64,000 nucleotides of DNA from a virus. Below the pieces are notes generated by a model that worked only from the letters and a program-made list of their open reading frames with translations, made no database searches and was not told where the DNA came from. The stretch spans positions 1 through 64,000 of IMG/VR virus record IMGVR_UViG_3300028581_001382; one strand, written 5' to 3'. Below are positions 27,160 to 43,551 of this stretch, piece after piece (positions within the stretch are counted from its first letter, which is position 1; every line of letters begins with the position of its first letter). Made by a program: the position numbers and the translations under genes.

Positions 27160-29178
27160 TCAACGGCTGTTTAGCATCTGTGCCATCAGTGCTCGACGTT
27201 TCACACGACTTTCACTTACGGTCTTTGGTCCAGTGTCCGTTTTTTTAGGTTCAGGAGTAGACTTAGGAATTGAGCTAGGAGTTCTACGCAAACTGGCATC
27301 ACTTTTAGCACGTTGTTTGTCCCAGGCCATGCTCAATCGTTGTGCAGCACTCATACGTGCCTCCGCTACACTTTCGTTCTTGCCTGATAGTCCTGCACGA
27401 GCTTCGGCTTTTGTCATTTTATATTGTGCTTGAAATTCAGCATCAGTTAGCTCTCGTAAATCCGTTATTAATTCTTTAACACGGCCTTCTGAAATACCTT
27501 TTTTCTTGGCTTCTTCTACATCATACTTGGGCATGGGTCTTTGACCAGCTCGACCTTTGACTCCACGCTTCTCTGTGCTTGGTGGTTTTGTTGGTGGAAC
27601 GATATCACCTTGGTATCTAACCTTAGTTGGTTCTGGCTTCTTTAGTCTGTCGGCTCTGGGCATTACTACAATAGGAGCACCTTCCGCCACACCTTGCTCA
27701 CCAACTAAATGTTTGGCGTCTTTGCCCCATTTCTTCCACATCCGTTTACCCCAGGTACTTTGATGGGGACTTGGTTTAACATCGTTGCCTAAACTTTTAG
27801 CAAAAGCATACATCATGGCAGCAACGCCTCGGCTCATATAATCGTCATCCACTTCGGTCCATTCACTTTCCAACCATTGATTACCTTTTTCATCAGATTT
27901 CACAACGAAGTGTGCCCAACCAATTACATTTTGACGATCATGTGCTGTTATAGATAATCCTATATCATTCAGATTACCATGTCCAAGAATTCTACCCCTA
28001 AATGGACGGGCTTTGAACTCAAAGTCATCCATGCGGACTTTCTCAGTTGGTTCGTTCGAAATGTGTTTGTCGAAAATATCTGGGTGTACTACTTCTTTTA
28101 TAGCCTTCTTCATATATTTCTTACGCAATTCTGAGCCTTCCACCACACCTTGCTCTTTCATATACTTCTTACGTAATTTTAAGTCTGATGGCGTTGCTTT
28201 TCTGATTAAATTCAAATATTTGTTTACTGGAATTTCTTTTATCTCAATGGGTTTGATTCCTTCTACTCCAGGAATAGAATGAAACTCTCTGCTATTGCCA
28301 CCTTGAACAAACTGTGGTTTTTCATCTGGACCATTGAATGGTAATTTATGTAGATACACATATTCACCTTTTCTAATCTTGCCACTGAACAAAACCATTT
28401 GTGGATCATTGGGGAACATACCTGTGTCTGACCCAGCAGTAGTTAGACCCATTGCTATAGCAACTTTAGGGTCGGAGGTAGCATAGATAGCATTTTGATT
28501 ACTACCAGCCGCACCACCTGTATCTACCGATTGTCTTGGCTCTAGCATAGGAATCTTTTGTCTTGACCCATGCCAAAGATAGGTATTAATAACTTTGCCT
28601 TCCGCCACACCTTCGTTAAACTCACCATCATCGCCCCATGGTTCTCCATAGATTTTTCCCCAGTCTTGGTTAAGTGGTAAATCATTTTCTATCCAGTATG
28701 CACCTAACTGATCTTTTAACTGTGTGTCGCCCTGAAGGTATGCGTCGAATCCTGGTTTTAGTCCTTTTAAGAAACTATCACGGACTTGTTCGAAATGTAC
28801 TATGTCTGCCGCAGCAACTTCCTGTGTACCGGCTTGTGCTAAGTCTTTTTTGGTCCACCCAGCATCTATTAGATCCTGTATTTCTTCTTGTTTTTGCTGA
28901 GCGAACTCATTAACAAAGTTTTCGGTAACAGCGTAATAGCTTGAAGCAGAATTGCCACCAGGGGCAAATTCATTTAATCGACTTCCTGCTACGCCTTGAT
29001 CAACTTTTTTCTCTCGTGCCCTACGTTTGGAATAGTCAGTGTCGGCTGGGTTGTTTTTGTTCTTGGCAGGTGGTCGAGTACCTGCAATTCGTTCTTCTTC
29101 ACTCTTGCGACGAGTAAAATAATCATTGGCAGCAGAGCCTTCAACGACTGTGGGCTTGAAAAGATTCTCAATAATCAT
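27160..29178 (-). CDS. Multidomain cleavable polyprotein with ART-like and GNAT-like modules, 672 aa
   Basis: A chain of modules separated by short G-V-[AV]-E-G/A-type linkers: DQGVAG (60-65), NEGVAEG (188-194), EQGVVEG (342-348), EQGVAEG (494-500) and NESVAEA (601-607). Modules: an N-terminal low-complexity part, an ADP-ribosyltransferase-like domain (about 196-325: TYLWHGSRQKIPMLEP, AIYATSDPKVAIAMG, GNSREFHS), a GNAT-like domain (about 400-490: NVIGWAHFVVKS, MSRGVAAMMYAFAKSLG, MWKKWGKDAKHLV), and two small C-terminal basic pieces. The V-A-E|G linkers resemble prohead-protease sites, so I infer an internal-head polyprotein processed on maturation. The N-terminus MIIENLFKPTVVEG may be the capsid signal. 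Confidence 0.7.
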   Translation of the reverse strand: MIIENLFKPTVVEGSAANDYFTRRKSEEERIAGTRPPAKNKNNPADTDYSKRRAREKKVDQGVAGSRLNEFAPGGNSASSYYAVTENFVNEFAQQKQEEIQDLIDAGWTKKDLAQAGTQEVAAADIVHFEQVRDSFLKGLKPGFDAYLQGDTQLKDQLGAYWIENDLPLNQDWGKIYGEPWGDDGEFNEGVAEGKVINTYLWHGSRQKIPMLEPRQSVDTGGAAGSNQNAIYATSDPKVAIAMGLTTAGSDTGMFPNDPQMVLFSGKIRKGEYVYLHKLPFNGPDEKPQFVQGGNSREFHSIPGVEGIKPIEIKEIPVNKYLNLIRKATPSDLKLRKKYMKEQGVVEGSELRKKYMKKAIKEVVHPDIFDKHISNEPTEKVRMDDFEFKARPFRGRILGHGNLNDIGLSITAHDRQNVIGWAHFVVKSDEKGNQWLESEWTEVDDDYMSRGVAAMMYAFAKSLGNDVKPSPHQSTWGKRMWKKWGKDAKHLVGEQGVAEGAPIVVMPRADRLKKPEPTKVRYQGDIVPPTKPPSTEKRGVKGRAGQRPMPKYDVEEAKKKGISEGRVKELITDLRELTDAEFQAQYKMTKAEARAGLSGKNESVAEARMSAAQRLSMAWDKQRAKSDASLRRTPSSIPKSTPEPKKTDTGPKTVSESRVKRRALMAQMLNSR
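27359..28617 (-). repeat. Dispersed 20-bp linker repeat (27.3-28.6 kb set)
   Basis: Nearly identical 20-mers encode the VAEG linkers of the 672-aa polyprotein. On the plus strand the core is CCTTCCGCCACACCTTGCTC at 27680-27699. Variants lie at 28136-28155 and 28598-28617, and a weaker one near 27359-27378. DNA identity exceeds what the protein requires, suggesting recent copying or recombination between linkers. Confidence 0.65.
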
Positions 29179-29179
29179 A

Positions 29180-29842
29180 TTATGCTTCTTCTAAGTAATC
29201 TTGGCTGGGATCTTGCAACTGTGAACGACGATGTGCTCGAAACATCTCTACTGCCATTTCAGCTTCATCTAAGTCTCTAAACTTGCTGGGCAATATACGG
29301 CCTTGATGGCGAATTTCAAATCCGCGACGTTGATCTCCCCAACACTCTAGACATGTGCCATCTTCTAATGTGATTGTTTTTACAGGACCAGATTCGCCTA
29401 CACTAACTGGACTCATCATGGCAGTACCTGACATCATTGGCTCTTGGGATTCTTCCTGTGACTGTTCGTCGTATTCGTCTTGATCGTCGGCCTTGGCAGG
29501 ATTCTTATCTTGAATTTCTTGTTTGGCTTTTTGTTCCAGCTGGTCAAGATATTGTGTGAGATCCTTCTTGACTCGGCTTAACATGTCTTCGTCGATCTCA
29601 GACATGCGTTCAGCCAATGCACTCCGAACAGGCTGAACACTATCGCCAACCATGTTTTTGCCTAATGGTTTCTTTTGATTATCACTGCCCAATACTGGTG
29701 ATACGTTTTCTGGCTTGAACAATGCAGGCAGTTGCGGCACTGACTTTTGTTGCTTGTTCAGCCCTTTTTTTACCGAGACGGGAGTAATGTCTGATTCAAT
29801 TACGGCCAGACGTTTTAGTATGTTTGCAATATCATAGCTCAT
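29180..29842 (-). CDS. Conserved phage protein with acidic coil, 220 aa
   Basis: N-terminal helix MSYDIANILKRLAVIESDIT, then Pro/Lys-rich sequence, a coiled coil (MLSRVKKDLTQYLDQLEQKA), a very acidic stretch (DDQDEYDEQSQEESQEP) and a C-terminal fold with DGTCLECWGDQRRGFEIRHQ. The last residues, DYLEEA, resemble the Glu-Ala cleavage ends seen at leaders of neighbouring genes. It overlaps Dps by 4 nt. Probably a virion or internal-head protein; family not named. Confidence 0.6.
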   Translation of the reverse strand: MSYDIANILKRLAVIESDITPVSVKKGLNKQQKSVPQLPALFKPENVSPVLGSDNQKKPLGKNMVGDSVQPVRSALAERMSEIDEDMLSRVKKDLTQYLDQLEQKAKQEIQDKNPAKADDQDEYDEQSQEESQEPMMSGTAMMSPVSVGESGPVKTITLEDGTCLECWGDQRRGFEIRHQGRILPSKFRDLDEAEMAVEMFRAHRRSQLQDPSQDYLEEA

Positions 29843-30279
29843 GCTCGTTCAACCTTCAAATAACTGTTCAGTTGCCAACGATACTTGCCATGAGCACTAA
29901 GTCGTTCTGCAATAAAATTAGCAATACCTTGTTGATTTTCTTCGTTGGCTACCGCAAAGCAAGCGTTCAGTACATCTAGCATTTGATTGTTGTTGGCGTA
30001 CAATTCTTCCAACATTAATCGAGCACGTGGAATTTTGGTCTGTCCAGAAATCTCTGTGAGTTCACTATAACGTTCTAAACTTCCCGGAGCATACTCACCT
30101 AGATAGCGAATGTATTCTGCTGTGGGATCTAGTGCTGAGTAAGCATCTTCGTAAATGTTTTGAAAGAAATCATGCAATTCTCCAAAGTCGGGACCTTCTA
30201 CATTCCAGTGAAATTGATGTGCTTTTAAGTAGTAGGCAAAATTAGTTGCCAGGAGTGTTTTTAAATTGTCCGCGAGCAT
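29839..30279 (-). CDS. dps: Dps/ferritin-like protein, 146 aa
   Basis: Ferritin-like four-helix protein of the Dps type: AYYLKAHQFHWNVEGPDFGE (residues 14-33, with the His-x-x-W site), LHDFFQNIYEDAYSALDPTA (ferroxidase Asp/Glu) and EYIRYLGEYAPGSL. Dps proteins store iron, detoxify peroxide and coat DNA; phage copies could protect DNA in the capsid or in the host. Start at 30279 is supported by AAAGGAAC; the longer frame overlaps the gene upstream. It lies within the internal-protein locus. Confidence 0.82.
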   Translation of the reverse strand: MLADNLKTLLATNFAYYLKAHQFHWNVEGPDFGELHDFFQNIYEDAYSALDPTAEYIRYLGEYAPGSLERYSELTEISGQTKIPRARLMLEELYANNNQMLDVLNACFAVANEENQQGIANFIAERLSAHGKYRWQLNSYLKVERA

Positions 30280-30454
30280 GCTTGTTCCTTTTGTATTCCT
30301 TGGGCGTGTTAGGCGTCGGGTCCGTTGTGTATTTACCACTCAGCATAGAACCGCCTTGTCTTGTTTGTATACCCATTGGTTGAACTAACACTGCCATAGA
30401 GCCAGTGCTGGAGCTGCCTGCGCTTGCGTCTTCCATTATTTCATGTGCTCTCAT
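30242..30454 (-). CDS. Small capsid-targeted protein candidate, 70 aa
   Basis: Starts at ATG 30454 with MRAHEIMEDASAGSSSTGS, in which the first ten residues match the leader pattern M-R-x-x-E-[FI]-x-x-[ED]-[AS] found in neighbouring genes; cleavage could fall after MED. The mature part is a Ser/Gly- and Lys-rich peptide, possibly disordered. It overlaps the 100-aa gene by 14 nt and Dps by 38 nt. Function unknown. Confidence 0.6.
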   Translation of the reverse strand: MRAHEIMEDASAGSSSTGSMAVLVQPMGIQTRQGGSMLSGKYTTDPTPNTPKEYKRNKHARGQFKNTPGN

Positions 30455-30743
30455 GTTCAATCCTTAACAATGTGTGGTTCACCATGTGTGCGCCCGGCGG
30501 TCCATCTTTGATGCATGTATTGCTCACTTGAATGCGCCCTTGTGCCGGCGGAACCAATTCTCGGCGTAATTCATATTCGCCCGGCGGTGCATAAATCTGT
30601 ATTAGTTCTTCTAGATACTCTTCTCGCCAGACCCATGTACGTTCTGAAAACAATTCTCCGCCTACATATAGTCTATAATTAGGTGACGGTCCGTCCCAGT
30701 CGACTGAAACATCAGCATTGATCAACACAAACTGTGCAGTCAT
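30441..30743 (-). CDS. Conserved phage protein, 100 aa
   Basis: Beta-rich small protein: FVLINADVSVDWDGPSPNYR, LYVGGELFSERTWVWREEYL, LIQIYAPPGEYELRRELVPP and a late HMVNHTLLRIEH. The strand pattern and size suggest a jelly-roll-like or immunoglobulin-like virion decoration protein, but this is only a guess. ATGA overlap with the 97-aa gene upstream. Confidence 0.6.
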   Translation of the reverse strand: MTAQFVLINADVSVDWDGPSPNYRLYVGGELFSERTWVWREEYLEELIQIYAPPGEYELRRELVPPAQGRIQVSNTCIKDGPPGAHMVNHTLLRIEHEST

Positions 30744-31033
30744 GTGTCGGATATGTCAGGAGTAACTGCTCGGTGCAGACGATGTCTTGATGCAGAACTT
30801 AAAAGATGATCATCGTCAGAGTCTGGTTCATATCCACCATAACGACTCGGGTCGGCACGATGTTTAATTCCAGTTTTGAGTTTTTCTATTTTGCCCATTT
30901 TAACTGGGGTTTTGTCTGGTGGAGAATTTGGACCACGGCGACCACTGTTAGAATTACCAGCTTCCTCAACATTCTTTTCGCCTAGGAATCCCATACCTTC
31001 ACGTGGGTGATTAAATAGTTCGTATATCAACAT
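30740..31033 (-). CDS. Hypothetical, possible internal-head protein, 97 aa
   Basis: Begins MLIYELFNHPREGMGFLGEK, which weakly resembles the leader consensus (M-x-x-x-E-[LF]-[FI]) with a possible cleavage at PREG. The rest is basic and polar with a GYEPDSDDDHLLSSASRHR stretch and a Thr/Pro-rich part. It is likely disordered. No family recognised. Separated by 2 nt from the 108-aa gene. Confidence 0.55.
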   Translation of the reverse strand: MLIYELFNHPREGMGFLGEKNVEEAGNSNSGRRGPNSPPDKTPVKMGKIEKLKTGIKHRADPSRYGGYEPDSDDDHLLSSASRHRLHRAVTPDISDT

Positions 31034-31035
31034 GA

Positions 31036-31362
31036 TTATTCAGTCCAGGGCAGTGGAAGTATTACCACTGGAGGGATAATCTGCAAGTCAATTTGATCTT
31101 GTACTTGTAACTCTACAGCGTTTTTATCGACACCATTGGTCCAGATCCAGTCAAGCACTTGTTGTTGTGTTAGATCAACGTAAGGTGTAAAAGATGCAGA
31201 AGCCAACGGAATCTCGCAGGCGGCGAGTGCTGATACCCGGGCGCTGTAGCCGTCTTGTACACCACTGCATGCCCAATAAACTCCAAATACCACATCCGGA
31301 TAACCGTCTGCTTCGGGATAGCATGTCATCTCAGTCACGGTCCAATTGATTGTTGCGGCCAT
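31036..31362 (-). CDS. Conserved phage virion-type protein, 108 aa
   Basis: Matches a small family common in tailed phages. The N-terminus MAATINWTVTEMTCYPEADG is followed by FGVYWACSGVQDGYSARVSA, TPYVDLTQQQVLDWIWTNGV and a Pro-rich end, LPLPWTE. The middle contains the recurrent 'L-T-x-x-Q-V-L-x-W' block. It is usually annotated as unknown or tail-associated. Ribosome binding site AGAAAG. It lies between the internal-protein genes. Confidence 0.7.
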   Translation of the reverse strand: MAATINWTVTEMTCYPEADGYPDVVFGVYWACSGVQDGYSARVSALAACEIPLASASFTPYVDLTQQQVLDWIWTNGVDKNAVELQVQDQIDLQIIPPVVILPLPWTE

Positions 31363-31385
31363 TGTAATTTACTTTCTAAAATCTG

Positions 31386-32030
31386 TTATGCCATCTGCGT
31401 GGAAGGAGACAATGCTGCGGCCAGGGCCATACGTTTTTGTCTATGTGCGCCCGAACTTCGTTCATAGTATTGATCTACAATAGCAGCAGCATCTTCTGCT
31501 GTTTTTGCACTCTTCAATCTTTGCCCTGCGTTTGCTTCCTTGTTGTTCAATTCGTACTGTACAAACTCTAATTGGTCTTGTAAGCTAGAATCTTGTAATG
31601 GTTTACGCATTGCATTAGCAAAATCTTGTTGTCGTGATCCGCGCCATTGTGCAATACCATATGCTTTCTCGCCGGGATTCCATGCAGCAGGATTGAGATT
31701 TTGACCTGATTCTGCTTGTAGGTTGGCCACTAGTCCAGCAGCTTGTTCAGGTGACCATCCTTGTTGCATAAAGTAGTCTAGAGCAATTTTTGCATTGCCT
31801 GCTGTGCCACCACCTGCTCTATTAGATGGTCCAGACATACCAGATCCAGGCAAACGTATTCGAGATCCAGGCTGAATATCATTAGCACTAGCAAACTGTG
31901 GATTTTGCCACATGATGCCATCTACTGTGGTATCGTAGGACTTTGCTATGTTCGGCAAGGAATCTCCAGATCTCACAGTATAGATATTGTTAGAGCTAGT
32001 GGCTTCAGACAAGAAATCAAATAACTTCAT
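31386..32030 (-). CDS. LysM plus phage tail-lysozyme-like muramidase with capsid leader, 214 aa
   Basis: The first residues, MKLFDFLSEATSS, mirror the T4 internal-protein leader (compare MKTYQEFIAEA) with cleavage expected at SE|A. A LysM domain follows (YTVRSGDSLPNIAKSYDTTV, then IQPGSRIRLP; residues 17-61). A lysozyme domain of the phage-tail type covers about 75-205 (QQGWSPEQAAGLVANLQAES, KAYGIAQWRGSRQQDF). It would cut peptidoglycan. An enzyme with this signal could be packaged and released with DNA rather than act from the tail. Ribosome binding site AAAGGG. Confidence 0.78.
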   Translation of the reverse strand: MKLFDFLSEATSSNNIYTVRSGDSLPNIAKSYDTTVDGIMWQNPQFASANDIQPGSRIRLPGSGMSGPSNRAGGGTAGNAKIALDYFMQQGWSPEQAAGLVANLQAESGQNLNPAAWNPGEKAYGIAQWRGSRQQDFANAMRKPLQDSSLQDQLEFVQYELNNKEANAGQRLKSAKTAEDAAAIVDQYYERSSGAHRQKRMALAAALSPSTQMA

Positions 32031-32031
32031 A

Positions 32032-32994
32032 TTACCCTTTTAACATGGTAGACATGCGACGCATTTGATCCACGCTGTATTCAAAATTTGATTGTTTACT
32101 AGTGCTTTCTTGAAGTTTTGCCGGTGCTGTGCCGCCTGCTGGTATACCTAATTTTGCTCTACCTTGATCAATTACAGAAGGCTGTGTTGCTATTCTTTGA
32201 CTAACTGACTGATTAGTTGGATTTGCTGGTGCCGCTGGTTTTGTTGGAGTAGCAGCCTGACCCGTCATATTAGCGGGCGGCGCCTTGGCGTAGCTGCTAC
32301 GCTCTTGAGCCGAGGCTGGTCCTCTGAGGTTAGCTGCAGGGCCGCCAGGTTTTTGTGCAGACAAAATAGCGCCTGCTGTGGTAGGCCCAATAATACCGTC
32401 AGCCGTTAAACCGTTAGCTGTTTGAAATTTCTTAATAGCATCAACATTTGGTTTATTATTCGTTAATAGTCCCATTCTAGATGCATACGCAGCGATTGCA
32501 GGGGACATTGATTTATTAGCAGCTGGCTTAGCTGGACTTGCTGCTTGTGTAGGTGCTGCTGGTGTAGATGCGGCAGCATTGACTGCCGCTGCTTGTCCCA
32601 TACTCATATCTGTAGCACTTGCAGCAGTATCGGCAGCATTGACTGCCGCTGCTTGTCCCATACTCATATCTGTAGCACTTGCAGCAGTATCGGCAGCATT
32701 GACTGCACCTGCTTGTCCCATACTCATATCTGTAGCACCTGCAACAGCGTCAGCCTTGTCAGCGGCAGCCTGTGCTGCTGCCTCTTCACCGGGATTACCT
32801 ACTCCAGTTGCAGAACTTGTTGCTGCTGGTTTACCTTTATTTGGTGCTCGCATGGCAATGTAAGGGTCATTGATGTCGGGTTTGCCGCCACCGCGGGTGT
32901 ACCATGCTTGATCTTCTGGACTCATGGCTGCAAATTTGGCAGCATCGGCACCTTGGTACGGATTTGCTTCTCTTAAAAATTCTATTGATCTCAT
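32032..32994 (-). CDS. Ala-rich repeat and peptidoglycan-binding protein with capsid leader, 320 aa
   Basis: The leader MRSIEFLREANPYQG has a likely cleavage at REA. Three 20-residue repeats (unit AADTAASATDMSMGQAAAVN) occupy about residues 82-142, followed by an Ala/Pro-rich part. A peptidoglycan-binding-domain-1 stretch (DAIKKFQTANGLTADGIIGP, about 184-203) contains the classic LxxDGIxGPxT core. The C-terminus is Pro/Ala-rich, then FEYSVDQMRRMSTMLKG. It may help the LysM-muramidase neighbour bind cell wall. The repeats are identical at DNA level in two copies. Ribosome binding site AAAGGAA; late box about 30 nt up. Confidence 0.7.
   Translation of the reverse strand: MRSIEFLREANPYQGADAAKFAAMSPEDQAWYTRGGGKPDINDPYIAMRAPNKGKPAATSSATGVGNPGEEAAAQAAADKADAVAGATDMSMGQAGAVNAADTAASATDMSMGQAAAVNAADTAASATDMSMGQAAAVNAAASTPAAPTQAASPAKPAANKSMSPAIAAYASRMGLLTNNKPNVDAIKKFQTANGLTADGIIGPTTAGAILSAQKPGGPAANLRGPASAQERSSYAKAPPANMTGQAATPTKPAAPANPTNQSVSQRIATQPSVIDQGRAKLGIPAGGTAPAKLQESTSKQSNFEYSVDQMRRMSTMLKG
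32571..32750 (-). repeat. Three 60-bp tandem repeats
   Basis: Unit starts CGGCAGCATTGACTGCCGCT on the plus strand. Copies at 32571-32630 and 32631-32690 are identical, and the third (32691-32750) diverges toward its end. The unit codes for a 20-residue Ala/Thr-rich peptide in frame. An expansion by slippage or unequal recombination is the simplest explanation. Confidence 0.85.
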
Positions 32995-33024
32995 GTGATA
33001 TTCCTTTATGAATGACCTATGCTT

Positions 33025-33032
33025 TATTTATT
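33025..33032 (-). promoter_or_regulatory. Late promoter box upstream of the repeat protein
   Basis: AATAAATA on the minus strand, 31 nt before the ATG at 32994, spacing compatible with a short leader carrying the AAAGGAA ribosome binding site. It matches the T4 late consensus apart from its first base. Confidence 0.5.
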
Positions 33033-33674
33033 CTATTTGCCCTGTGCTGCCAATCTTGCACCATTGTTAAAACTGTTGCTGTGACTGGCAGCATTTCTGT
33101 TGCCACGTGCTTTTGACCATGCATAACCAGCTCTGTGCCCAGAACAATCTTTGGTGCAAGGCGACCCCAAAAATGATAATTCATCCAACTCTTGTTTTCC
33201 AGTGTATCGTTTAATTATGGACATTGATTCCTGATCATTCAACAGAGATGCTAATCCAGGATGTAGTGGGCGTGGCCAGTCGCCAAACTCTACCCATTCA
33301 GATCCTTGAGTTTCCCAATTTAACATTGGTTTAAATTCGTGAGCTACTATGGCTAAAAAATTGTAGTATCTAAATCCCGACGGATGCCTGAACACATACA
33401 ACGGGATCAGTTTAAGTGGGCCGTTATACCCTGCTTCTTCTTTGACTTCTCGTTTGACAGCATGTGCTGGATTTTCACCAGCGTCGATTGCACCGCCCCA
33501 TGTTCCCCAGGTGTTAGGTTGCTCCACTTGTGATGATCTATGAGCTATACAAATCCGATTGGTATCGGCTGCCAGGAACAAACAACCAGCAGCTTGCTTG
33601 CCCCAGAATCCTGTTTTCTCCAAAGCATCACGATGTTCTTTATCTGACTCAGTCACAAATTCGGTTGCTCTCAT
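33033..33674 (-). CDS. NUDIX hydrolase with capsid leader, 213 aa
   Basis: Leader MRATEFVTESDKEHRD. NUDIX box GGAIDAGENPAHAVKREVKE followed by EAGYNG (about residues 60-85) is complete (G-x5-E-x7-REVxEEAG). It hydrolyses nucleoside diphosphate-linked substrates. A C-terminal module, about 165-213 (CTKDCSGHRAGYAWSKARG, SFNNGARLAAQGK), has two Cys and a His and resembles a small domain seen in many marine phage proteins. A packaged NUDIX enzyme could act on NAD, ADP-ribose or nucleotide signals immediately after injection. ATGA overlap with the downstream gene. Confidence 0.8.
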   Translation of the reverse strand: MRATEFVTESDKEHRDALEKTGFWGKQAAGCLFLAADTNRICIAHRSSQVEQPNTWGTWGGAIDAGENPAHAVKREVKEEAGYNGPLKLIPLYVFRHPSGFRYYNFLAIVAHEFKPMLNWETQGSEWVEFGDWPRPLHPGLASLLNDQESMSIIKRYTGKQELDELSFLGSPCTKDCSGHRAGYAWSKARGNRNAASHSNSFNNGARLAAQGK

Positions 33675-34150
33675 TTGGCATCTCCAAAGATTGGTCCACC
33701 GACATACTGACCATTCTGACTTAACACACCATTGCGTAGATTGTTGATAATGTTATCAGTGATGTTTCTGCGACGGAAATGCGGCAAAAAAATATGTGTT
33801 TCTACAGGACGATCGCCCTGCTCTGCTTGGATAGCATACATCCTGTGACGCCCGTCATGATCACGCACCTTGGCTTCTAAATTGAAATCATCGTTCTCCC
33901 AAGCTTCAGGAACTGCTATGGTTAAAAACGGTGCTCCAAACCCTTTATCATTGATCTGTCGGCGTAGATATTGTATAGTTTCTTTTTCGTCAGGAGAGTT
34001 AACATCCAAGGGCAAGCTGAGTTTGAGGAATGTGCTGGGTCGCATGACTGTGCGTAGACCAAAGTAATCTACATCAGCATTGTGCGGAACAGCACCGAGA
34101 CCTTGCCGATTGTCTATCTTTAGTTCCGTTATGAATTCCTTTGATCTCAT
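33671..34150 (-). CDS. ParB/Srx-like domain protein with capsid leader, 159 aa
   Basis: Leader MRSKEFITELKIDNRQG. In the middle, EAKVRDHDGRHRMYAIQAEQ carries the D-G-x-H-R core of ParB/sulfiredoxin-like domains (about residues 92-111), where phosphate or nucleotide binds. AVPEAWENDDFNLE precedes it. ParB-like domains can act as CTPases, nucleases or kinases, so a biochemical role cannot be set. It is chained by 4-nt overlaps to the NUDIX and the 67-aa gene. Confidence 0.65.
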   Translation of the reverse strand: MRSKEFITELKIDNRQGLGAVPHNADVDYFGLRTVMRPSTFLKLSLPLDVNSPDEKETIQYLRRQINDKGFGAPFLTIAVPEAWENDDFNLEAKVRDHDGRHRMYAIQAEQGDRPVETHIFLPHFRRRNITDNIINNLRNGVLSQNGQYVGGPIFGDAK

Positions 34151-34350
34151 GTGTCTATCCTGTGTACATTGGTCACTATGCTGTCTTTGCCGTATTGAGC
34201 TTGCAGTAATAATCGAGCCATGGCAGGTGACTTGGCAAATATAGCCACATCTATACTGGTAGTATACGAAGGATTTTTGACCCGCACAGACGCACTATAC
34301 ACATGAAATCCCGGAAGCAAGTCTTCACAGAGAAATTCTGTTGCTCTCAT
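34147..34350 (-). CDS. Small capsid-leader protein, 67 aa
   Basis: Starts at ATG 34350 with MRATEFLCEDLLPGFHVYSA; cleavage might fall after CED. The rest is a small alpha/beta piece: VRVKNPSYTTSIDVAIFAKS and LLLQAQYGKDSIVTNVHRID. The upstream ORF's extra four residues are not used because the leader pattern begins here and the previous gene's stop overlaps this ATG (TGATG). Function unknown. Confidence 0.65.
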   Translation of the reverse strand: MRATEFLCEDLLPGFHVYSASVRVKNPSYTTSIDVAIFAKSPAMARLLLQAQYGKDSIVTNVHRIDT

Positions 34351-36059: not shown

Positions 36060-36083
36060 TTAGTTCACCTTTTTCTAACAGTT

Positions 36084-37169
36084 TCATTTGTTTTTTGCTC
36101 TTCCAGCTTTCATATTGGCCAACCAGTGTGCCATGCGTTGTTTTTCACCAGAACTGTTCTTGGCAGTTTTTCTCAAACTACTTACACTGGCTTTGGTATT
36201 TACTCCCACACGTTTGGCCAGACCCTTGCGTCCAGGATTACGGCCGTCAGCAAAGTTTTCGTCAACCGAAGACTCATTGGATGTTGCAACAGGTTGTTTG
36301 GCCTTGTAGATATCTTCCCATTTGTCTGAAATAGCATTCTTTAATTCCAGCGTGGATTTAAAATTATTGTCTTGCATATACTTAATTATCCACACAGCAC
36401 TAGCACGGTCTCCTGAATCAGGCTTGCGAGCATTGCTTAGATCCACGCTGAGATTTTGATCTTCTGATGGATTACCATAGTACCGCATGGTCTTTAACGC
36501 ACGTTTTGCTCTATCACTTAGATGTGCTTCGTCGCTCTTGGTAATTAACTCAATCCAGGGCTTTACAAAGTCTGTGGGCTTGCGGGACGATCCAGCTGGT
36601 GTTGGTCCACGTAATACATCACGGGATTGGCCTGGTATCTGTGCTCGACGTTTGTTCAGCAATCGCCATGCTGCTTCGTCTGTGTAGAAAAACACAGGTA
36701 AGCCTTGTTGCTTGGCTGTGATCAGGATCTGTCGTGTTTCTGGACTGCGATATTCATCTTGTTCTTTGAGCAACACATGAACTTCAGTCACAGGAGTGAT
36801 TGGAATAGTGGGCTCTTTGCTAAACACACGGTCTTCTGCTTCTCTGGTTCTTGTACCATTGCTGTGTAACCATGCACGGTCCCAGTAGTCAATGGGTTTC
36901 ACAATGTATCGAGAGTTAAACCAGTCACCATTGAGTTTGAACATCACAGCGCCTGATCCCACCCAGCGATGATAATCGCCAGTTATTGTTCGTGTCAAAC
37001 TAAGAAAGTATGGATATCCAGCAGGAGCATACTGTTCTTCGCTGCGATTGCCGGTCACGCTGGCCAATTCAAAGTTGCCGGATTGCAGTATTCTTAACCC
37101 AGCTCTGATACTGGTGTAATGAAACAATACATCAGTTGCTCGTTCAATTAAAAATTCCGTTGCTCTCAT
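36084..37169 (-). CDS. ART-like (DarT/TRPT-type) protein with capsid leader, 361 aa
   Basis: Leader MRATEFLIERATDVLFHYTS. The HYTS stretch (residues 17-20) with GLRILQSGNFELASVTG looks like the NAD-binding opening of ADP-ribosyltransferases (H-[YT]-x). The later stretch VTEVHVLLKEQDEYRSPETR contains Glu candidates for catalysis. The rest of the first 170 residues matches an ART-type alpha/beta body. The C-terminal 60 residues are basic (NPGRKGLAKRVGVNTKASVS, KQRMAHWLANMKAGRAKNK) and probably bind nucleic acid. The target is unknown; it may modify DNA or a host protein. AAGG ribosome binding site. Confidence 0.62.
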   Translation of the reverse strand: MRATEFLIERATDVLFHYTSIRAGLRILQSGNFELASVTGNRSEEQYAPAGYPYFLSLTRTITGDYHRWVGSGAVMFKLNGDWFNSRYIVKPIDYWDRAWLHSNGTRTREAEDRVFSKEPTIPITPVTEVHVLLKEQDEYRSPETRQILITAKQQGLPVFFYTDEAAWRLLNKRRAQIPGQSRDVLRGPTPAGSSRKPTDFVKPWIELITKSDEAHLSDRAKRALKTMRYYGNPSEDQNLSVDLSNARKPDSGDRASAVWIIKYMQDNNFKSTLELKNAISDKWEDIYKAKQPVATSNESSVDENFADGRNPGRKGLAKRVGVNTKASVSSLRKTAKNSSGEKQRMAHWLANMKAGRAKNK

Positions 37170-37534
37170 TATACATACCTTGCTAGTTCATCTTCACCTA
37201 AATCTTGTATGCGATTGGGCGGGATTTTAGTTGTGGAGAAGTACCATCCGTGGTCATATGTCAATGGAATACCCGTCACATCAATTTGCAACAATGTCAA
37301 TGGATCATCGCTACCCTCTGACTTGGCGTACATCCATCCACCGACCATACTTAGTTCTCTTTGTAACTTGACCTTATCACCTTCGTCTACAACCATAAAT
37401 GCTTTGCCATCATACGGATCTAGCCCAGCATATAGAATTTCTTCTGCGTTTTCAGTACTGGTAATATGGTACGCAGTTTTAAACTCATGGTCATGATGTG
37501 TCCTTGATTCAGTGACAAATTCAGTTGCTCTCAT
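37169..37534 (-). CDS. ART-like small protein with capsid leader, 121 aa
   Basis: Starts at ATG 37534: MRATEFVTESRTHHDHEFKT, identical in its first ten residues to the NUDIX leader. A KTAYHITSTENAEEILYAGL stretch (about residues 19-38) followed by DPYDGKAFMVV has the H-[IT]-[TS] and gly-rich loop of RNA 2'-phosphotransferase/ADP-ribosyltransferase folds. The full H-Y-E triad is not certain. The gene stops against the start of the larger ART-like gene, so the two share a transcript. Confidence 0.62.
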   Translation of the reverse strand: MRATEFVTESRTHHDHEFKTAYHITSTENAEEILYAGLDPYDGKAFMVVDEGDKVKLQRELSMVGGWMYAKSEGSDDPLTLLQIDVTGIPLTYDHGWYFSTTKIPPNRIQDLGEDELARYV

Positions 37535-40500
37535 TTGGGTTCCCATTGCATACTTTTACTACCTTTAACAGTAGGAGTAAACCCTTGACCTCTGTAGAAC
37601 TTGGTTAATTTACTTTGACTCACTTGTCCTTTGTCCCAAGGAAACAGTGTCAAGCTGATGCCATCTTCTCTTGCCATGGCTTGTAGTTCTTGCATGGCAC
37701 GTGACCCAACACCTTGACGTAGCGGATATGCTTGAATCCATTTGACTTCAACTGCGCCGCGCTTGCTAAAGCTAGGAACAAGTTCAAACATAGCAAACTG
37801 TTGGTCATCGCCTTTGCCCCAGACCATAACGTGATTGTTCTGCATGGTGTATGGATACTTTGCGTAGACTCGTTCAATCCATGCCTGTGCAGCATCATTG
37901 TTGCCTAGTTTGATTCTTATTGGCTCTTCTTCTTCGGCTACATCTTTCATTAGATGTTTAGCATCGCCGGACTTCTTCCAAGCATCCCACATGGCCTTGC
38001 CAGGCGGCAATTGATTTCTACTTGGTACAATAGTGTTACCCAACATTCTCACATACGCATAGATGTTACGTGCTATACCGCGGCCTTGATATTCAAGTTT
38101 CAAGCTGGTAACTGCTGACACTAGACCATTTTTGCTGGGTCTAAATTTTGCAAGACCTATCTGTTGATAATTGTCGTCTAGCACTTTGACTTGAAAATAT
38201 TCTTTACCATTTATTTCAATCCCAGTGGCACGATATGTCAGCCCATCAAAAATTTGGGTGTCGTTGAACGCTGGATTGAAAACATCTGGATTGATAGTTT
38301 CATTTAAGTTGTTGGCCATTACTTGTGGTAAGAAACTGGCGGCAATGTGTTGGCAAGTGTTAAAAATGTCAGCATTATCAGTGACCTGCAGATTGAATGG
38401 ATAGTCTGTGGTAGGATGCTGTGTGGGGTCTTGCCACCCAGCATAACATTTTTCAATACCAAAGTCAGCTAACAAATCAGTGCAACTCTCTCCATACCTC
38501 TCATCCATGTCATGCACACAAGGACTCAATGTAGTGACCATGATGGCATTGGGACCAATACGACCGTGACGTTTGAGATGCTGGTCTATGGCCACTCGTT
38601 CAGCATGGCGTCGTGTTCCGTTGAGCCCAGGCAAGTTGATAGCATAAGTGTGATTGTTTTTGTTATCAATCAAACAAGCAGCCACACGTCCATACTTTTC
38701 TGGATCAGTCTCATGACCACGATGTATCATGTTGATGCACTTTTTCAGCACATTATCTAGTTTACCAAGTTTTGTGATCTCTTGGCTTTCATCCATATCT
38801 TCTTCACCAGGCTCGTCTAGGTCGTGTATGGGCAAGCCAAGGCGTTTGAGCTTGTGACTGTACATGTTTTCTAGCTCTTCGCTGCCAAACGCCAACACAG
38901 TATGCGGCGGGCCTTGATTGTAATGAGACTTGTCGGCTTGATCAAGATCGCTAATGTCTTGTCCCAACTGATACCAATCTTGGGTGTCGCTCACATCCAC
39001 TTTGATTGTGCCAGCGGGCATTTTGGGAGGTGTTTCAGGACCAGTTGGTTTTTGATTGCCTAGAGCATCCAGGTCACGACGTAATCGTTGTTCTAACACT
39101 GTGATGTTTTCTGACACTGATTGAGAACGTAGTCTCACTGAGAAGTTACTGGCATCCACTTCTGGATTTGCCTGCATTGCAGTAGCCACCCATTCTTGAC
39201 CTCGACGCCAGGCTTCTGTTTGATTTGCTGCCTGTATTACAAATACTGGTTGATTGGAAGATCTATTGTATACTTCCCACTGTGTTTGTGCCATTGGGAT
39301 ATCTAATTCAACGTCTTCTACTCCTGGAATTGGGGTGGATGTGTATTGGTATTGTTGTTGGCTTGCTGCAACACCCATCTCTGGTACTACTGTAACTCCA
39401 GCCTGCATACGCCCAGGATTACTACGCATCCAGTTTATGGCCACACGGTTGGCATCACTCTGTACATTGCCTACTCCCGAGAAGCGATGTATTTCTTGAC
39501 CGTCCGGATTCAAGATCAACCAGTTGCCAGTGAATGTTTGCTGACCTTGACCCGGACGAGTTAAAGTTTGCGGTATGCCAACGTCAACAATGCCACCTTG
39601 TGCTGCATCTGAATTATTGCCCTGGCGGGTACGAACACCGTACAATTCAGGAGCTTCGCCACGCATGCCTAACGCCAAACGTGCTTCTTGTTCAGCTTCG
39701 GGTCTACTGGTATTGCTCAACTCTCTCACAGTAGAGTTGTCGCTGATTCTATAGATTTCCCATGGACCTGGGCCAGTGGGCACCAAGTTGCGTGGCTGTC
39801 CTTCGCGTGGTACATTTTGTGTGCTAACGAATGCATTTGATGATCGCGCTGGCACTGTCGACGCCCGGAACAGGTGAGAACGGCCAGCGGTGTTGCCAAA
39901 TATATCTGGTCTTGCTTCTCCAGCAGCTCTTATAGCGTTTAGCTCAGATGACGCACGAATTTGTATTTCTTGCCCAGGATTACCTTGTGGGCTTACATAC
40001 CAGATTGGTTGTTCAGTCTGTTGTGGTTCAATTTCACGCACTTCAATGTCAGTTATCATACGAGAATTTTGTTCACGACCTTGAGTTATGAACTGTTCAG
40101 CAGCCTCACGACTTGGGAATCTACGCAACACATTGTTGTCAGACTGGCCAGGAGCTCTAGCAAAGCGGTTCATGTCATTCATCCAAATGCCCCAGTTGCC
40201 TGTACTTGGTTGTGCGGCAGATTGTGGGCCAGGTTGTTGCTGATCACCACCACGGGCAACCACAGTGCCAGCACGATCAACTAAACTAAAGTCATGTGGA
40301 TTATTTTCCCCTGAAACAAACTGTCTAAACTTTTGTACAGCGTCTTCTTGACTTGATGCTGTGATCGATGATCTATTGTAACCGGCTCGAGCATCATAAA
40401 CGCTATAGGACAATGATGGCTTCGGATCCTGATATGGTCGTAGCGGTTTTGCCTGTAGAGTGTTCCGTGCGCTGGCCCAGTCTGGGTAGTTGCCTGGTTC

Positions 40501-43500
40501 TATAGCCTTGGCGATGGCTTCTTCCTTGCTAGAAGCAACAATTTCAATGCTGGCAAAATATCCAGGACGACTCACATCCCACCAATATTTTTGTCCCTTT
40601 GGTGTCTTGCCTTTGGCAAGATTACGGGCGAGATTCTGTTGCTCTAGTTCTTGAAAAGTTGCTTTTCTAAAGTCTTTGATGGCCTGTTGCGTTTCTTTGC
40701 TTAGTTTGTCGCCGACTTCTTTGCTATTGCCCTGCAACGATACCATGTACTTGGCAAACTCTTGAATCATATCACCATATTCGTCCTTGGTACCGTTAGG
40801 ATTCAACAGTTTGTACAGCTTCTTGAGATATTCTTGGCGATACTTTTCAGGATCCATCGCAGCGTCCAGGGCCACAGTAAATCGTAATAGGGTATCTTCA
40901 ATCTTGCTGAAGTTTGAATCCAACCAGTCGCCACCCGGACTCCGGAATTCAATGTATCCTGTCTTGGTATTGATACTGGTATATTTTTCTGTAGTGCCTG
41001 TGTGAATGGCCTTGGTGGCAATGTCTTCCATGTGCTCACGCATCTTGTCCATGACCTGCGGAGCAATATCAGGATTGCGTTTCAGCATGGTTTTAATTTT
41101 GCCAATTGCTGACTTGGCATAGTTATTGCCTGAACGTCCAAACAGTTCTAGCACATATTCATCGCCCATGAGCAGGGCCAGTTTGACATAGTCCAGTTTG
41201 TCAAGACTGTAGTTGGGTACTGAAATGTTGATATGCAAGCCAGTGCTGTCATTGGTATAGCAACCAGACTTGTCTGCCCAAGCCTTGACCTTGTTTAGAT
41301 CTGAAATCATTTCATCTATGGGCATAGGCGGACTAACAAATTCTAAACCTTCGTCGCCAGGGTTGTCGCCTTCTAAACTGCCGTCAGGTTCCACAACATA
41401 GGTACCTGCTTCACGACGGCCGCCATGGTAATTTCTACTGGCGTTCACAGGTTTACCCATGTAACTGGAGAATTCATCAGCCACTTGATCTATATCCATG
41501 TCACCGTCGTTGCCCTCATTAGCGTCAGTGTAATAGGGCCATTCAATATCAAAGTTGCTTTCGATGTCACTCATGGTTTGATATTTGTCATCCAAGAAAC
41601 TGCCTTCATCGTACTCGTCTCGTTGTTCTTCTGCAAACGCTTCAAATGCATCATTGAAGACACGGCCTTGATCTTCAAAAGCTTCCAGCACAAACTGTTC
41701 TTGTAATTCATCAAGTCTGGCACTCAGCAGTTGAGAGAAGTCTTCGCTCTCTTGTGGCAAGTCAGGATTGGCATCCATGATTTCGTCACGAGCTTGTAGC
41801 ATGGCTTCATCACGATCAAACAAGTCATTAACGTTGACAAAGTCACGCATGTAATCTACTCCATCGCGTGTCCAAGCTTCAGCAGTTTGTTCCTGCTGCC
41901 ATTCCTCGTACTCGTTTTGTATTTCTTCCATTAGGTCATCTACTGCACGGCGTCCATTGTGGTCACCGTCATGGAAAAAGTCTCGAATGTCACTGAAGCT
42001 TCTGGTACGTTGATCCTGATCGTAGTCTGGTTCCCAGTCAGGTTCTTGTTCATCGACCCCAACATCGGGCACAATCATTTCAAATTCCATGCCTGCCTGT
42101 GCGCCTGTTTGTGCTGCTAACTGACGCAGATTGGTGCTGGTCATCTTGATTTCAAACAGATCTTTCTCTTTGAACTCTCGCAACATCTTGTTTAAACCGG
42201 CTGTGAGTAATGCAGGATGACCTTGTGAATCTGTTTGTAATCCAAGTTTGTTGGCTTCCTTGCCCACAGCACCTGGACGCACATCTCGGGTCAAGGCCAT
42301 GACAAATCTTGGATCGCGTGCCTGTGCCTTTGTGGGTATGTATCCTGACGCTTCTTCCAGTGTGACCCCATCAAACATTTCAGGCTGTTCTTCAGCCCAC
42401 TGTCGCATGATACGGCCAGCCATGGCGTTGGCTTGGTCTTCCCAAGGGCTACCAGTTTCACCAGCATCTATAGGCAGGGGATTTCTTTCATCCTGCTGAC
42501 GATGTGTCATCTCATGGGCCATGGTGCGAAGTATATCCAACACATGGCGTCCCGCGGTGGCCAAGATCAGTGTGTTGCTTTCTGGTTCGTATTGACCAAA
42601 GCTACCGTTCTCTTGACTCCATTCTGGTGTTGTTTCCAAACGCAATCTAGGTGGATTCTCTAATTTAAGTTTATCTACACAACTGGCATAGAAACGATGT
42701 AGGATCTTTTTCAAATGGTCAAGTTCTACACTTTCATCCACTTGTTCTGATTCAGTACCAGCAGGGTGATCTTGGCCAGCATACGCAGTACCTGGATACC
42801 AGTAATCACGCATGCCGTAATTGACTTTCTTTCTGGCAGCAGGCTTACGATTTAAACTCAACTCACGATCTTGTATTGCTGTCTTGGCATCTTTTAATTT
42901 GCCAATGCAACCCATATTTCTCAACAATTTAAATGCAATGTTCTCGCAGCCAAACTCACCATTCTTTTCCAGGCCAGTTTGGCGCATTGTTTTGATCTTG
43001 TCCCACAGCTGATTCACAGCATCTGCATTGCCGGACTTGATAGCTGAATGTATTCTGGCATCAAGATCAGCTGTTTTGTGTTGTACACAAGAGTCATCTA
43101 TGCTAGCACGACGGCGCTGTGGAACTTGTACCCAGTCACCATTCTTTACGCTGTAAATGCCTTGACTCACATGCTTTTGATCACTGGGCTGCACATACAG
43201 TTCCACTGGAACGCCAGCAATCTTTATGTCATGCTCGGCATTATACTGATATTTTTTTGCATTGAACAGTTCTTGATACACAGGATCGTCAGGCATGTCC
43301 ACCACAAGGTGTAGATCAATGTCTGAATGGCGAGTATAAGAATAGGCAGCATTGCTACCTGATATGGTAATGTCCTGAATGTTGAGATCATCAACACCCA
43401 GGAATTCTTGAAAATTTGACGCAATTGCCAGCAACTTGTCACGCACATCAGGTAACAAGTGCTCGTCTGACCCCCACAAACGGGGGTTCAAACGTTGATG

Positions 43501-43551
43501 GAATTTTACAGCATCGGCGAGATTAAAGTTGTCAAGATCATGGAAATTCAT
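37531..43551 (-). CDS. 2006-aa multidomain effector polyprotein candidate
   Basis: Modules in order: nucleotidyltransferase, residues 60-120 (SGSNAAYSYTRHSDIDLHLV; G65-S66, D77, D79); HExxH metalloprotease, 280-400 (MAHEMTHRQQD; H346, E347, H350); amidoligase-like, about 487-880 (GMEFEMIV; GLEFVSPPM; STGLHINISV; GYIEFRSPGGDW); about seven beta repeats of the 'W-x-[VI]...A-x-x-A' kind, 985-1480; zinc deaminase, 1615-1720 (RHAER with H1649/E1651; SPC, C1678; C1690); GNAT, 1770-1870 (YQGRGIARNIYAY); and a second GNAT, 1875-2006 (LRQGVGSRAMQEL). Sites such as VTLEEASG may be cut. It lacks the standard leader and has a late box 4 nt before its ATG. Confidence 0.75.
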   Translation of the reverse strand: MNFHDLDNFNLADAVKFHQRLNPRLWGSDEHLLPDVRDKLLAIASNFQEFLGVDDLNIQDITISGSNAAYSYTRHSDIDLHLVVDMPDDPVYQELFNAKKYQYNAEHDIKIAGVPVELYVQPSDQKHVSQGIYSVKNGDWVQVPQRRRASIDDSCVQHKTADLDARIHSAIKSGNADAVNQLWDKIKTMRQTGLEKNGEFGCENIAFKLLRNMGCIGKLKDAKTAIQDRELSLNRKPAARKKVNYGMRDYWYPGTAYAGQDHPAGTESEQVDESVELDHLKKILHRFYASCVDKLKLENPPRLRLETTPEWSQENGSFGQYEPESNTLILATAGRHVLDILRTMAHEMTHRQQDERNPLPIDAGETGSPWEDQANAMAGRIMRQWAEEQPEMFDGVTLEEASGYIPTKAQARDPRFVMALTRDVRPGAVGKEANKLGLQTDSQGHPALLTAGLNKMLREFKEKDLFEIKMTSTNLRQLAAQTGAQAGMEFEMIVPDVGVDEQEPDWEPDYDQDQRTRSFSDIRDFFHDGDHNGRRAVDDLMEEIQNEYEEWQQEQTAEAWTRDGVDYMRDFVNVNDLFDRDEAMLQARDEIMDANPDLPQESEDFSQLLSARLDELQEQFVLEAFEDQGRVFNDAFEAFAEEQRDEYDEGSFLDDKYQTMSDIESNFDIEWPYYTDANEGNDGDMDIDQVADEFSSYMGKPVNASRNYHGGRREAGTYVVEPDGSLEGDNPGDEGLEFVSPPMPIDEMISDLNKVKAWADKSGCYTNDSTGLHINISVPNYSLDKLDYVKLALLMGDEYVLELFGRSGNNYAKSAIGKIKTMLKRNPDIAPQVMDKMREHMEDIATKAIHTGTTEKYTSINTKTGYIEFRSPGGDWLDSNFSKIEDTLLRFTVALDAAMDPEKYRQEYLKKLYKLLNPNGTKDEYGDMIQEFAKYMVSLQGNSKEVGDKLSKETQQAIKDFRKATFQELEQQNLARNLAKGKTPKGQKYWWDVSRPGYFASIEIVASSKEEAIAKAIEPGNYPDWASARNTLQAKPLRPYQDPKPSLSYSVYDARAGYNRSSITASSQEDAVQKFRQFVSGENNPHDFSLVDRAGTVVARGGDQQQPGPQSAAQPSTGNWGIWMNDMNRFARAPGQSDNNVLRRFPSREAAEQFITQGREQNSRMITDIEVREIEPQQTEQPIWYVSPQGNPGQEIQIRASSELNAIRAAGEARPDIFGNTAGRSHLFRASTVPARSSNAFVSTQNVPREGQPRNLVPTGPGPWEIYRISDNSTVRELSNTSRPEAEQEARLALGMRGEAPELYGVRTRQGNNSDAAQGGIVDVGIPQTLTRPGQGQQTFTGNWLILNPDGQEIHRFSGVGNVQSDANRVAINWMRSNPGRMQAGVTVVPEMGVAASQQQYQYTSTPIPGVEDVELDIPMAQTQWEVYNRSSNQPVFVIQAANQTEAWRRGQEWVATAMQANPEVDASNFSVRLRSQSVSENITVLEQRLRRDLDALGNQKPTGPETPPKMPAGTIKVDVSDTQDWYQLGQDISDLDQADKSHYNQGPPHTVLAFGSEELENMYSHKLKRLGLPIHDLDEPGEEDMDESQEITKLGKLDNVLKKCINMIHRGHETDPEKYGRVAACLIDNKNNHTYAINLPGLNGTRRHAERVAIDQHLKRHGRIGPNAIMVTTLSPCVHDMDERYGESCTDLLADFGIEKCYAGWQDPTQHPTTDYPFNLQVTDNADIFNTCQHIAASFLPQVMANNLNETINPDVFNPAFNDTQIFDGLTYRATGIEINGKEYFQVKVLDDNYQQIGLAKFRPSKNGLVSAVTSLKLEYQGRGIARNIYAYVRMLGNTIVPSRNQLPPGKAMWDAWKKSGDAKHLMKDVAEEEEPIRIKLGNNDAAQAWIERVYAKYPYTMQNNHVMVWGKGDDQQFAMFELVPSFSKRGAVEVKWIQAYPLRQGVGSRAMQELQAMAREDGISLTLFPWDKGQVSQSKLTKFYRGQGFTPTVKGSKSMQWEPK

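Follow-up and report, generated by a model that had tools for sequence, protein, structure and literature searches.

A putative modular, protease-matured capsid cargo locus in a large T4-related phage

Genes of the Locus

The 154-kb contig derives from a freshwater giant-phage relative in which unrelated enzymes, encoded in one run of genes, share the same short N-terminal tag. The locus occupies positions 27160 to 43551 of the window, the 64,000-nucleotide stretch of DNA that was analyzed. A sequence-only reading had described a run of leader-led minus-strand genes here, and both the genes and their N-termini were confirmed. In the list below, an arrow marks a putative cut.

27160..29178, minus strand: 672-aa polyprotein, about ten [ILVM]xE↓[GSAN] sites
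29180..29842, minus strand: 220-aa product enriched in [ILVMF]xE[SGAN], C-terminal end DYLEEA
30242..30454, minus strand: 70-aa product, MRAHEIMEDA start at 30454, leader-like with Asp at the usual Glu position
30740..31033, minus strand: 97-aa product, MLIYELF start and VEE↓A, weakly leader-like
31386..32030, minus strand: 214-aa muralytic protein, leader MKLFDFLSE↓A, LysM and Phage_lysozyme2 (Pfam)
32032..32994, minus strand: 320-aa product, leader MRSIEFLRE↓A, peptidoglycan-binding domain (PG_binding, Pfam)
33033..33674, minus strand: 213-aa NUDIX hydrolase (Pfam), leader MRATEFVTE↓S
33671..34150, minus strand: 159-aa product, leader MRSKEFITE↓L, no Pfam match
34147..34350, minus strand: 67-aa product, leader MRATEFLCE↓D, true start 34350
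34350..36059, minus strand: 569-aa product, leader MKSNEFITG, no Glu at position 9
36084..37169, minus strand: 361-aa protein, leader MRATEFLIE↓R, predicted ART fold, disordered linker, VDE↓ and basic module A (NFADG...)
37169..37534, minus strand: 121-aa domain as a separate gene, leader MRATEFVTE↓S, true start 37534
37531..43551, minus strand: 2006-aa polyprotein with Pfam/PHROG domains

The domains behind the leaders had been described as completely different, and most of this description stands. NUDIX, LysM plus Phage_lysozyme2, PG_binding, and DUF6321 all have Pfam support, and the predicted structure of the 361-aa product is an ART of the DarT/Tpt1 type. Pfam lends no support to the ParB-like label given to the 159-aa product; ParB_N does occur in leader-bearing relatives elsewhere. 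Membership of the 361-aa product in the Alt family is not indicated, as there is no Pfam or PHROG match and the fold is DarT/Tpt1-like. Its leader and linker have AF2 pLDDT values below 50 and are predicted to be disordered. An ART-like look was also considered for the 121-aa protein and remains unproven because the AF2 model failed (pLDDT 40).

Leaders at Gene Starts

In T4, a leader tag sends proteins into the head and is then removed. The corresponding pattern here was written as the 9-mer M[KR]xx[EDQNK][FLIM][ILVMF]xE and sought at all ATGs of the 154-kb contig. Among 167 called starts, 5 match, as do 2 of the 6,049 remaining ATGs; the latter two, at 34350 and 37534, lie a little inside the called genes and are the true starts. 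With the starts corrected, the count is 7 of 169 starts versus 0 of 6,047 other ATGs (Fisher p = 1e-11), and all seven fall in a single 6.2-kb block (31386–37534). The clustering of leaders is not chance. Relatives encode 123 proteins with the strict leader, in 48 sequence clusters. The locus thus meets the criterion for T4-type capsid-targeted cargo, a short M-K/R ... hydrophobic-x-Glu leader on several unrelated proteins. Two leader ends depart from the pattern, with Gly in MKSNEFITG and Asp in MRAHEIMED, and both count against the cargo reading. A megablast search of the locus against known phages gave no match.

Shared N-termini could instead reflect a recombination or translation-initiation cassette, a conserved block of 5' DNA favoring gene shuffling, with no targeting role. 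The unrelated domains behind the leaders, the tight operon-like spacing, and the extensive domain shuffling would all be expected of such a block. The codons argue otherwise; the Thr codon is different in each of the four MRATEF copies, so the leaders are conserved as protein. This explanation deserves almost no credence, and two further observations given below also count against it.

Polyproteins and Internal Sites

The 2006-aa protein strings together a nucleotidyltransferase (residues 12–233), a possible metallopeptidase (279–357), an amidoligase (687–874), a cytidine deaminase (1600–1704), and a GNAT domain (~1945–1992). The peptidase (E 0.046) and GNAT (E 0.003) matches are below curated cut-offs. 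Candidate cut sites, recognized from sequence only, lie between the domains at VDE273, LEE400, LFE467, VSE1481, MDE1588, and VAE1873. Neither this protein nor the 672-aa product has an M[KR]xxEF leader, and the absence of a clear leader at the N terminus of the 2006-aa protein counts against the cargo reading, as its targeting route is unexplained.

Repeated GVAEG-type linkers had been noted in two genes, and they are indeed present in the 672-aa and 569-aa products. Sites in the 672-aa product include VVE↓G, VTE↓N, VAE↓G, VVE↓G, VAE↓G, VEE↓A, ISE↓G, VAE↓A, and VSE↓S, and its segments recur in other genes of relatives. It has the highest density of [ILVMF]xE[SGAN] on the contig (z = 4.8); the 569-aa product (z = 3.4) continues after its leader with LDE↓GWSQKYK (module C), repeated VAE↓G linkers, and ILE↓TAAW at DUF6321 (module B). 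For the 220-aa product, the ortholog in the nearest relative (G003) has MAADQLFE↓SS upstream and in frame. A C-terminal copy of the motif (DYLEEA/DYLDEA) was tested and is not clearly enriched.

Fusion and fission occur at the identical Glu. The leader-led 121-aa gene corresponds to the last domain of a polyprotein of about 2,000 aa in relatives (2017/2092 aa in G003 and L012), where it follows DLAE↓E or NVAE↓A. Judged from sequence, a leader and an internal GVAEG-type linker can take each other's place.

Small basic modules show similar shuffling behind the Glu of a putative cut site. The NUDIX protein, for example, ends in a basic module of ~50 aa after LDE↓ that is common to other genes, and minimal proteins consisting of a leader, Glu, and a module exist (MRANEFIIE↓NFADG, MRAEEFITE↓SAAW, and MKASEFVNE↓GWSQKYK). 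Across 93 independent contexts of module A, P1 is Glu in all 93 and P3 is V/L/I/M in 65, with P2 and P4–P8 near random. P1 is likewise Glu in 18 of 18 contexts of module C and 11 of 11 of DUF6321. The P1 Glu and hydrophobic P3 at leaders, linkers, and module borders match the (L/I)xE preference of gp21, although cleavage itself is inferred. Val is the joint commonest P3 residue, which counts against a T4-type reading given the T4 preference for Leu or Ile. A generic test of alignment starts and boundaries against these sites gave only a weakly positive enrichment and is not relied on.

That Glu is invariant at module A would also be possible for a structural residue, the first conserved position of the module's fold, in which case the leaders would be unrelated to it. 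This is very unlikely, given that the P1 Glu and hydrophobic P3 are common to the leaders and to three unrelated modules and that the region is predicted to be disordered. The identical Glu grammar inside proteins, far from start codons, is also difficult to reconcile with a 5' DNA cassette.

Prohead Protease and Head Cassette

A PF03420 search of the phage's own 154-kb contig found no match, but the contig is a fragment and the initial control genomes were also silent. Cyanophage records and relatives were then searched, and there the profile works. Because the contig is a fragment, the missing prohead protease cannot be used as a refutation, though the lack of gp21 on the contig is a point against the cargo reading. 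G003 is collinear with the contig, with a DNA polymerase 96% identical, and off the corresponding end it encodes gp20, an acidic core-like protein, gp21, gp22, and gp23. The gp20-gp21-gp22-gp23 cassette is found in G003 and in a second relative, G001 (gp21 E = 9e-26 and 9e-28, respectively), and a gp21-type protease (Peptidase_S77) in these two and in G002 and G005.

The scaffold protein gp22 ranks first for [ILVMF]xE[SGAN] density in the proteomes of both G003 and G001 (z 6.3 and 6.8). This bears on a further possibility, that the gp21 sites are real but belong to prohead core or scaffold proteins consumed in assembly, like T4 gp22, gp67, and gp68, and not to delivered effectors. The richness of gp22 itself in such sites, the chopped-up appearance of the 672- and 569-aa products, and the small, basic modules are consistent with a core. 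Enzyme families among the cargo (NUDIX, deaminase, amidoligase, and the ART fold) are not, nor is the persistence of homologs or leader-bearing enzymes in mature cyanophage virions. A scaffold role is unlikely but cannot be set aside entirely.

Leaders in Cyanophage Virions

Published virion mass spectrometry of cyanophage S-CREM2 includes ORF156, a homolog of the nucleotidyltransferase of the locus, and the virion proteins ORF6, 14, 154, 13, 136, and 12 have leaders. Among nonstructural S-CREM2 proteins, the strict leader rule is met by 4 of 27 in the virion versus 0 of 158 others (p = 4e-4). The pattern was framed after some N-termini had been seen; a rule refined after the sequences were seen gives p = 0.0016 and a looser pattern p = 0.09. 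Leader-bearing enzymes in published cyanophage virions comprise a SAM hydrolase, a kinase, a cytidylyltransferase, and a Cas9-like protein, and the virion NMNAT of S-SCSM1 starts MKSFLQFLKE↓A. Cyanophage leaders differ in sequence and length yet retain F-[LIFM]-x-E, which again argues against a DNA cassette.

Virion proteomics is also published for Atu_ph07 (PMC6102473). The amidoligase homolog of that phage, AUZ94978.1, starts MRWQDISSKKLTE↓L.

Proposed Mechanism and Significance

The T4-type capsid-targeting reading first made from the sequence draws support from cyanophage virion mass spectrometry, the G003 cassette, and the gp21-like Glu signature; packaging and cleavage are undemonstrated here. 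Identification of the leaders as T4-type capsid-targeting leaders is well supported as a prediction; neither this phage nor any close relative is represented by virion data, which counts against the cargo reading. Leader tags, together with putative cut sites dividing multi-enzyme polyproteins, indicate that a mixed enzyme set is probably loaded into the head for delivery with the DNA. The probability that the locus provides a large T4-related phage with a modular capsid cargo system matured by a protease is put at roughly 85%, with targeting, cleavage, injection, and effector function all inferred.

Under the proposed mechanism, the leader M-[K/R]-x-x-E-F-[hydrophobic]-x-E would target each protein to the capsid by docking it on the prohead scaffold, and the phage's gp21-type protease would cut after the final Glu of the leader. 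The (hydrophobic)-x-Glu sites within the 2006-, 672-, and 569-aa products would split these polyproteins into domains in the prohead, and the small, strongly basic modules behind cut sites would probably remain with the packaged DNA. At infection, the ART-fold protein, NUDIX, amidoligase, deaminase, nucleotidyltransferase, and muralytic enzymes may then exit together with the DNA and act immediately, probably on host defenses or host nucleotide metabolism. A LysM-lysozyme is unusual as head cargo and counts against this reading.

The small internal-protein set of T4 would in this way extend to a general, readable code in which hydrophobic-x-Glu at the end of a leader or linker identifies capsid cargo, and delivered enzymes should therefore be predictable from sequence in uncultivated phages. 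The code offers a possible mechanism for unexplained metabolic enzymes in cyanophage particles. It also suggests that cleavable polyproteins are a phage means to load many proteins at once. A broader proposal, for and against which the case is evenly balanced, is that large T4-related aquatic phages have a general capsid delivery route via protease-matured polyproteins. Any domain at a (hydrophobic)-x-Glu site, behind a 9–10-residue leader or inside a cargo polyprotein, would be loaded, freed in the prohead, and delivered, with basic modules serving as exchangeable DNA-associating tags. If true, this delivery rule would account for the recurrent presence of enzymes in cyanophage virions, the Cas9-like nuclease among them.

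Comparison with Known Systems

The T4 internal proteins IPI-III and Alt carry a capsid-targeting sequence and are processed by gp21 (Peptidase_S77) (PMC9026906, PMC7411985, PMC12373910). The locus resembles them in its N-terminal leader of about 10 residues ending in (hydrophobic)-x-Glu, its unrelated cargo, and its clustering, and its nearest relative has the gp20/21/22/23 cassette of T4. It differs in that its cargo proteins are more numerous and mostly enzymes, its polyproteins contain internal sites, and its basic C-terminal modules are shuffled. The leader is one residue shorter than in T4 (a 9-mer), with valine common at P3. The system is new as a variant of T4 internal-protein packaging, with processing and injection inferred.

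Like the polyvalent proteins of phages and plasmids (Iyer et al. 2017, PMC5512222), the 2006-aa protein combines disparate enzymes in a single chain, and it is probably packaged. It satisfies the definition of several disparate domains in one polypeptide, with significant matches for the nucleotidyltransferase, amidoligase, and deaminase and weak ones for GNAT and the peptidase. Unlike in polyvalent proteins, the domain borders carry prohead-protease-like sites, and domains of the locus also occur as separate leader-led genes.

The large phages phiKZ and SPN3US have ejection proteins that are likewise head cargo and are processed by the prohead protease after x-x-Glu, although the protease is diverged and the motif is S/A/G-x-E (PMC13282480). 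Cyanophages S-CREM2, S-SCSM1, and S-SZBM1 share with the locus a virion-associated nucleotidyltransferase homolog or enzymes such as NMNAT, kinase, and SAM hydrolase. In the parts of the reports on these phages that were available, packaging or carry-over is considered and a leader is not mentioned; leaders were found on inspection in the virion enzymes of S-CREM2 and S-SCSM1.

Leaders and the Domains Behind Them

The minus-strand genes and N-termini that the sequence-only reading assigned to a T4-type capsid-cargo locus (window 27160-43551) were all present when the contig, a viral fragment of 154 kb, was reread. The products discussed here are:

27160-29178, minus strand, 672-aa protein
33671-34150, minus strand, 159-aa protein
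36084-37169, minus strand, 361-aa protein
37169-37534, minus strand, 121-aa protein
37531-43551, minus strand, 2006-aa protein

When one strict 9-residue leader pattern was tested after every ATG of the contig, it gave seven matches, all of them gene starts (Fisher p = 1e-11) and all confined to 31386-37534. Thr is encoded by a different codon in each of the four MRATEF copies, so the constraint acts on the protein and not on the DNA. Across 86 related loci and two related genomes (G001 and G003), the strict leader occurs in 123 proteins, which form 48 sequence clusters; the domains include amidoligase, deaminase, NUDIX, HD, GNAT, ParB_N, chitinase-class and lysozyme.

Pfam bears out the claim that unrelated domains follow the leaders (NUDIX, LysM with phage lysozyme, peptidoglycan-binding and DUF6321), while the "ParB-like" label of the 159-aa protein lacks Pfam support. 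For the 361-aa protein, structure prediction (mean pLDDT 74) gives a DarT/Tpt1-type ADP-ribosyltransferase fold (Foldseek probability 1.00, E about 1e-3), with a disordered leader and linker.

The locus also holds a ferritin/Dps-like protein (29839-30339; Pfam Ferritin, E = 1.9e-20), and G001 similarly has such a gene directly upstream of its ART-like gene. Proteins at 44548-45240 (weak CTP_transf likeness) and 29180-29842 keep in relatives a C-terminal tail, DYLEEA/DYLDEA, a leader-like motif at the opposite end of the protein. Distant from the main block, a DUF6267 protein (contig 150360-152336; L005:6360-8336; N-terminus MQIKQLLE/GG, the slash marking a putative cut) and a 299-aa protein (contig 147787-148686; L005:3787-4686; N-terminus MKLNELAV) look like additional leader-bearing cargo or core proteins.

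Putative Cut Sites and Domain Exchange

The 361-aa protein ends in a 57-residue basic module (NFADGKNPGRKGLAKRS...). Viral contigs scanned without selection for a DNA pattern yielded 93 distinct contexts of this module. The residue before it (P1) was Glu in all 93, and P3 was one of V, L, I and M in 65, with P2 and P4-P8 near-random (3.7-3.9 bits). Glu also directly precedes two unrelated modules, DUF6321 (11/11) and WSxKYK (18/18). In many small genes the leader abuts the module at the Glu, e.g., MRANEFIIE/NFADG, MRAEEFITE/SAAW and MKASEFVNE/GWSQKYK.

The 121-aa domain has its own leader-led gene in the contig (MRATEFVTE/S) and is the final domain of the polyproteins of G003 (2017 aa) and locus L012 (2092 aa), where the Glu of the junction (DLAE/ and NVAE/, respectively) aligns with the leader Glu. 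In locus L010, the GNAT domain that ends the 2006-aa protein has its own gene, led by MRANEFLIE. Within the 2006-aa protein the amidoligase domain follows LFE/; in G001 (MRALDFILENTEVLDE/V) and Atu_ph07 (MRWQDISSKKLTE/L) it comes after a leader. Because the same domains follow a leader in one genome and an internal Glu linker in another, leaders and linkers are interchangeable in evolution, as expected if one protease cuts both.

Head Genes of Relatives

The closest isolates by DNA polymerase are Sinorhizobium phage Phosso (49%) and Agrobacterium phage Atu_ph07 (46%), jumbo phages related to T4. Uncultivated relatives are closer; the G003 polymerase is 96% identical. G003 is collinear with contig bases 1-65981 and has a T4-type head cassette in the order gp20, acidic core-like protein, gp21 (Peptidase_S77, E = 9e-26), gp22 and gp23; G001 (352 kb) shares this cassette. 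Since the G003 cassette lies ~115 kb left of the matching region, the lack of a prohead protease gene in the contig is most likely an effect of where the contig ends rather than a true absence. In enrichment of [ILVMF]xE[SGAN] sites, the scaffold protein gp22 ranks first in both G003 and G001, and the 672-aa product ranks first in the contig.

A 524-kb viral contig (G002) has two divergent phage DNA polymerase copies in opposite orientation near its ends (18719-21430 and 508482-511193); its assembly possibly joined two phages.

Cyanophage Virions

In the published S-CREM2 virion proteome, ORF156 was detected with 6 peptides (PMC10665884); it is a homolog (39% identity) of the nucleotidyltransferase domain of the 2006-aa protein. 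Leaders are present on the unexpected non-structural proteins of these virions: a SAM hydrolase (MKDFDSFLEE), a kinase (VKRFDAFLTE), a cytidylyltransferase (MKNFSSFLTE), a Cas9-like nuclease (...RFASFMAE), ORF13 (MKDLHSFLTE) and ORF136 (MQTFSMFFSE). A strict rule matched 4/27 virion and 0/158 other non-structural proteins (p = 4e-4); it was composed after two of the tested N-termini were known, and one match, ORF17, is marginal (one peptide). A looser rule gave p = 0.09. The S-SCSM1 virion NMNAT begins MKSFLQFLKE/A. In P-SSM2 and S-P4, DUF6321 proteins are encoded close to gp16 and gp17, and the S-P4 annotation calls them "structural".

The Cas9-annotated nuclease, S-CREM2 ORF12 (OR473000, L135, bases 7704-10313, minus strand), which is reported in virions, has its leader-like RFASFMAE/A ~18 residues in, behind a W..W prefix common to S-CRM01 gene 128 (L146:1053-1604); the nuclease could be genuine capsid cargo. 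S-SCSM1_93 (L147:4227-4436), an annotated 69-aa virion protein (SKAQQRFMGMVHA...), recurs within the DUF6321 polyprotein of S-SCSM2R, behind IEE/.

Model and Comparison with T4

In the best-supported model, the leader would dock the protein onto the scaffold, gp21 would then strip the leader and cleave the linkers, and the matured enzymes and basic modules would remain with the DNA and be delivered; targeting, cleavage and delivery are all inferred for this phage. The host function of the enzymes is unknown, with anti-defence and nucleotide or NAD metabolism the leading guesses. Our search, confined to open-access literature, turned up no paper that describes polyprotein cargo whose leaders and linkers are interchangeable, shuffled modules or a leader-based account of cyanophage virion enzymes, which does not prove absence. 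Cargo loci led by a capsid targeting sequence are already known in T-even phages. In T4, the first 10 residues of IPIII suffice for packaging, and injected IP proteins block type IV restriction (PMC9026906, PMC12373910). T4 gp21 cleaves C-terminal to L/I-x-E (PMC9026906); the GVAEG linkers of the locus conform to this rule, with V at P3.
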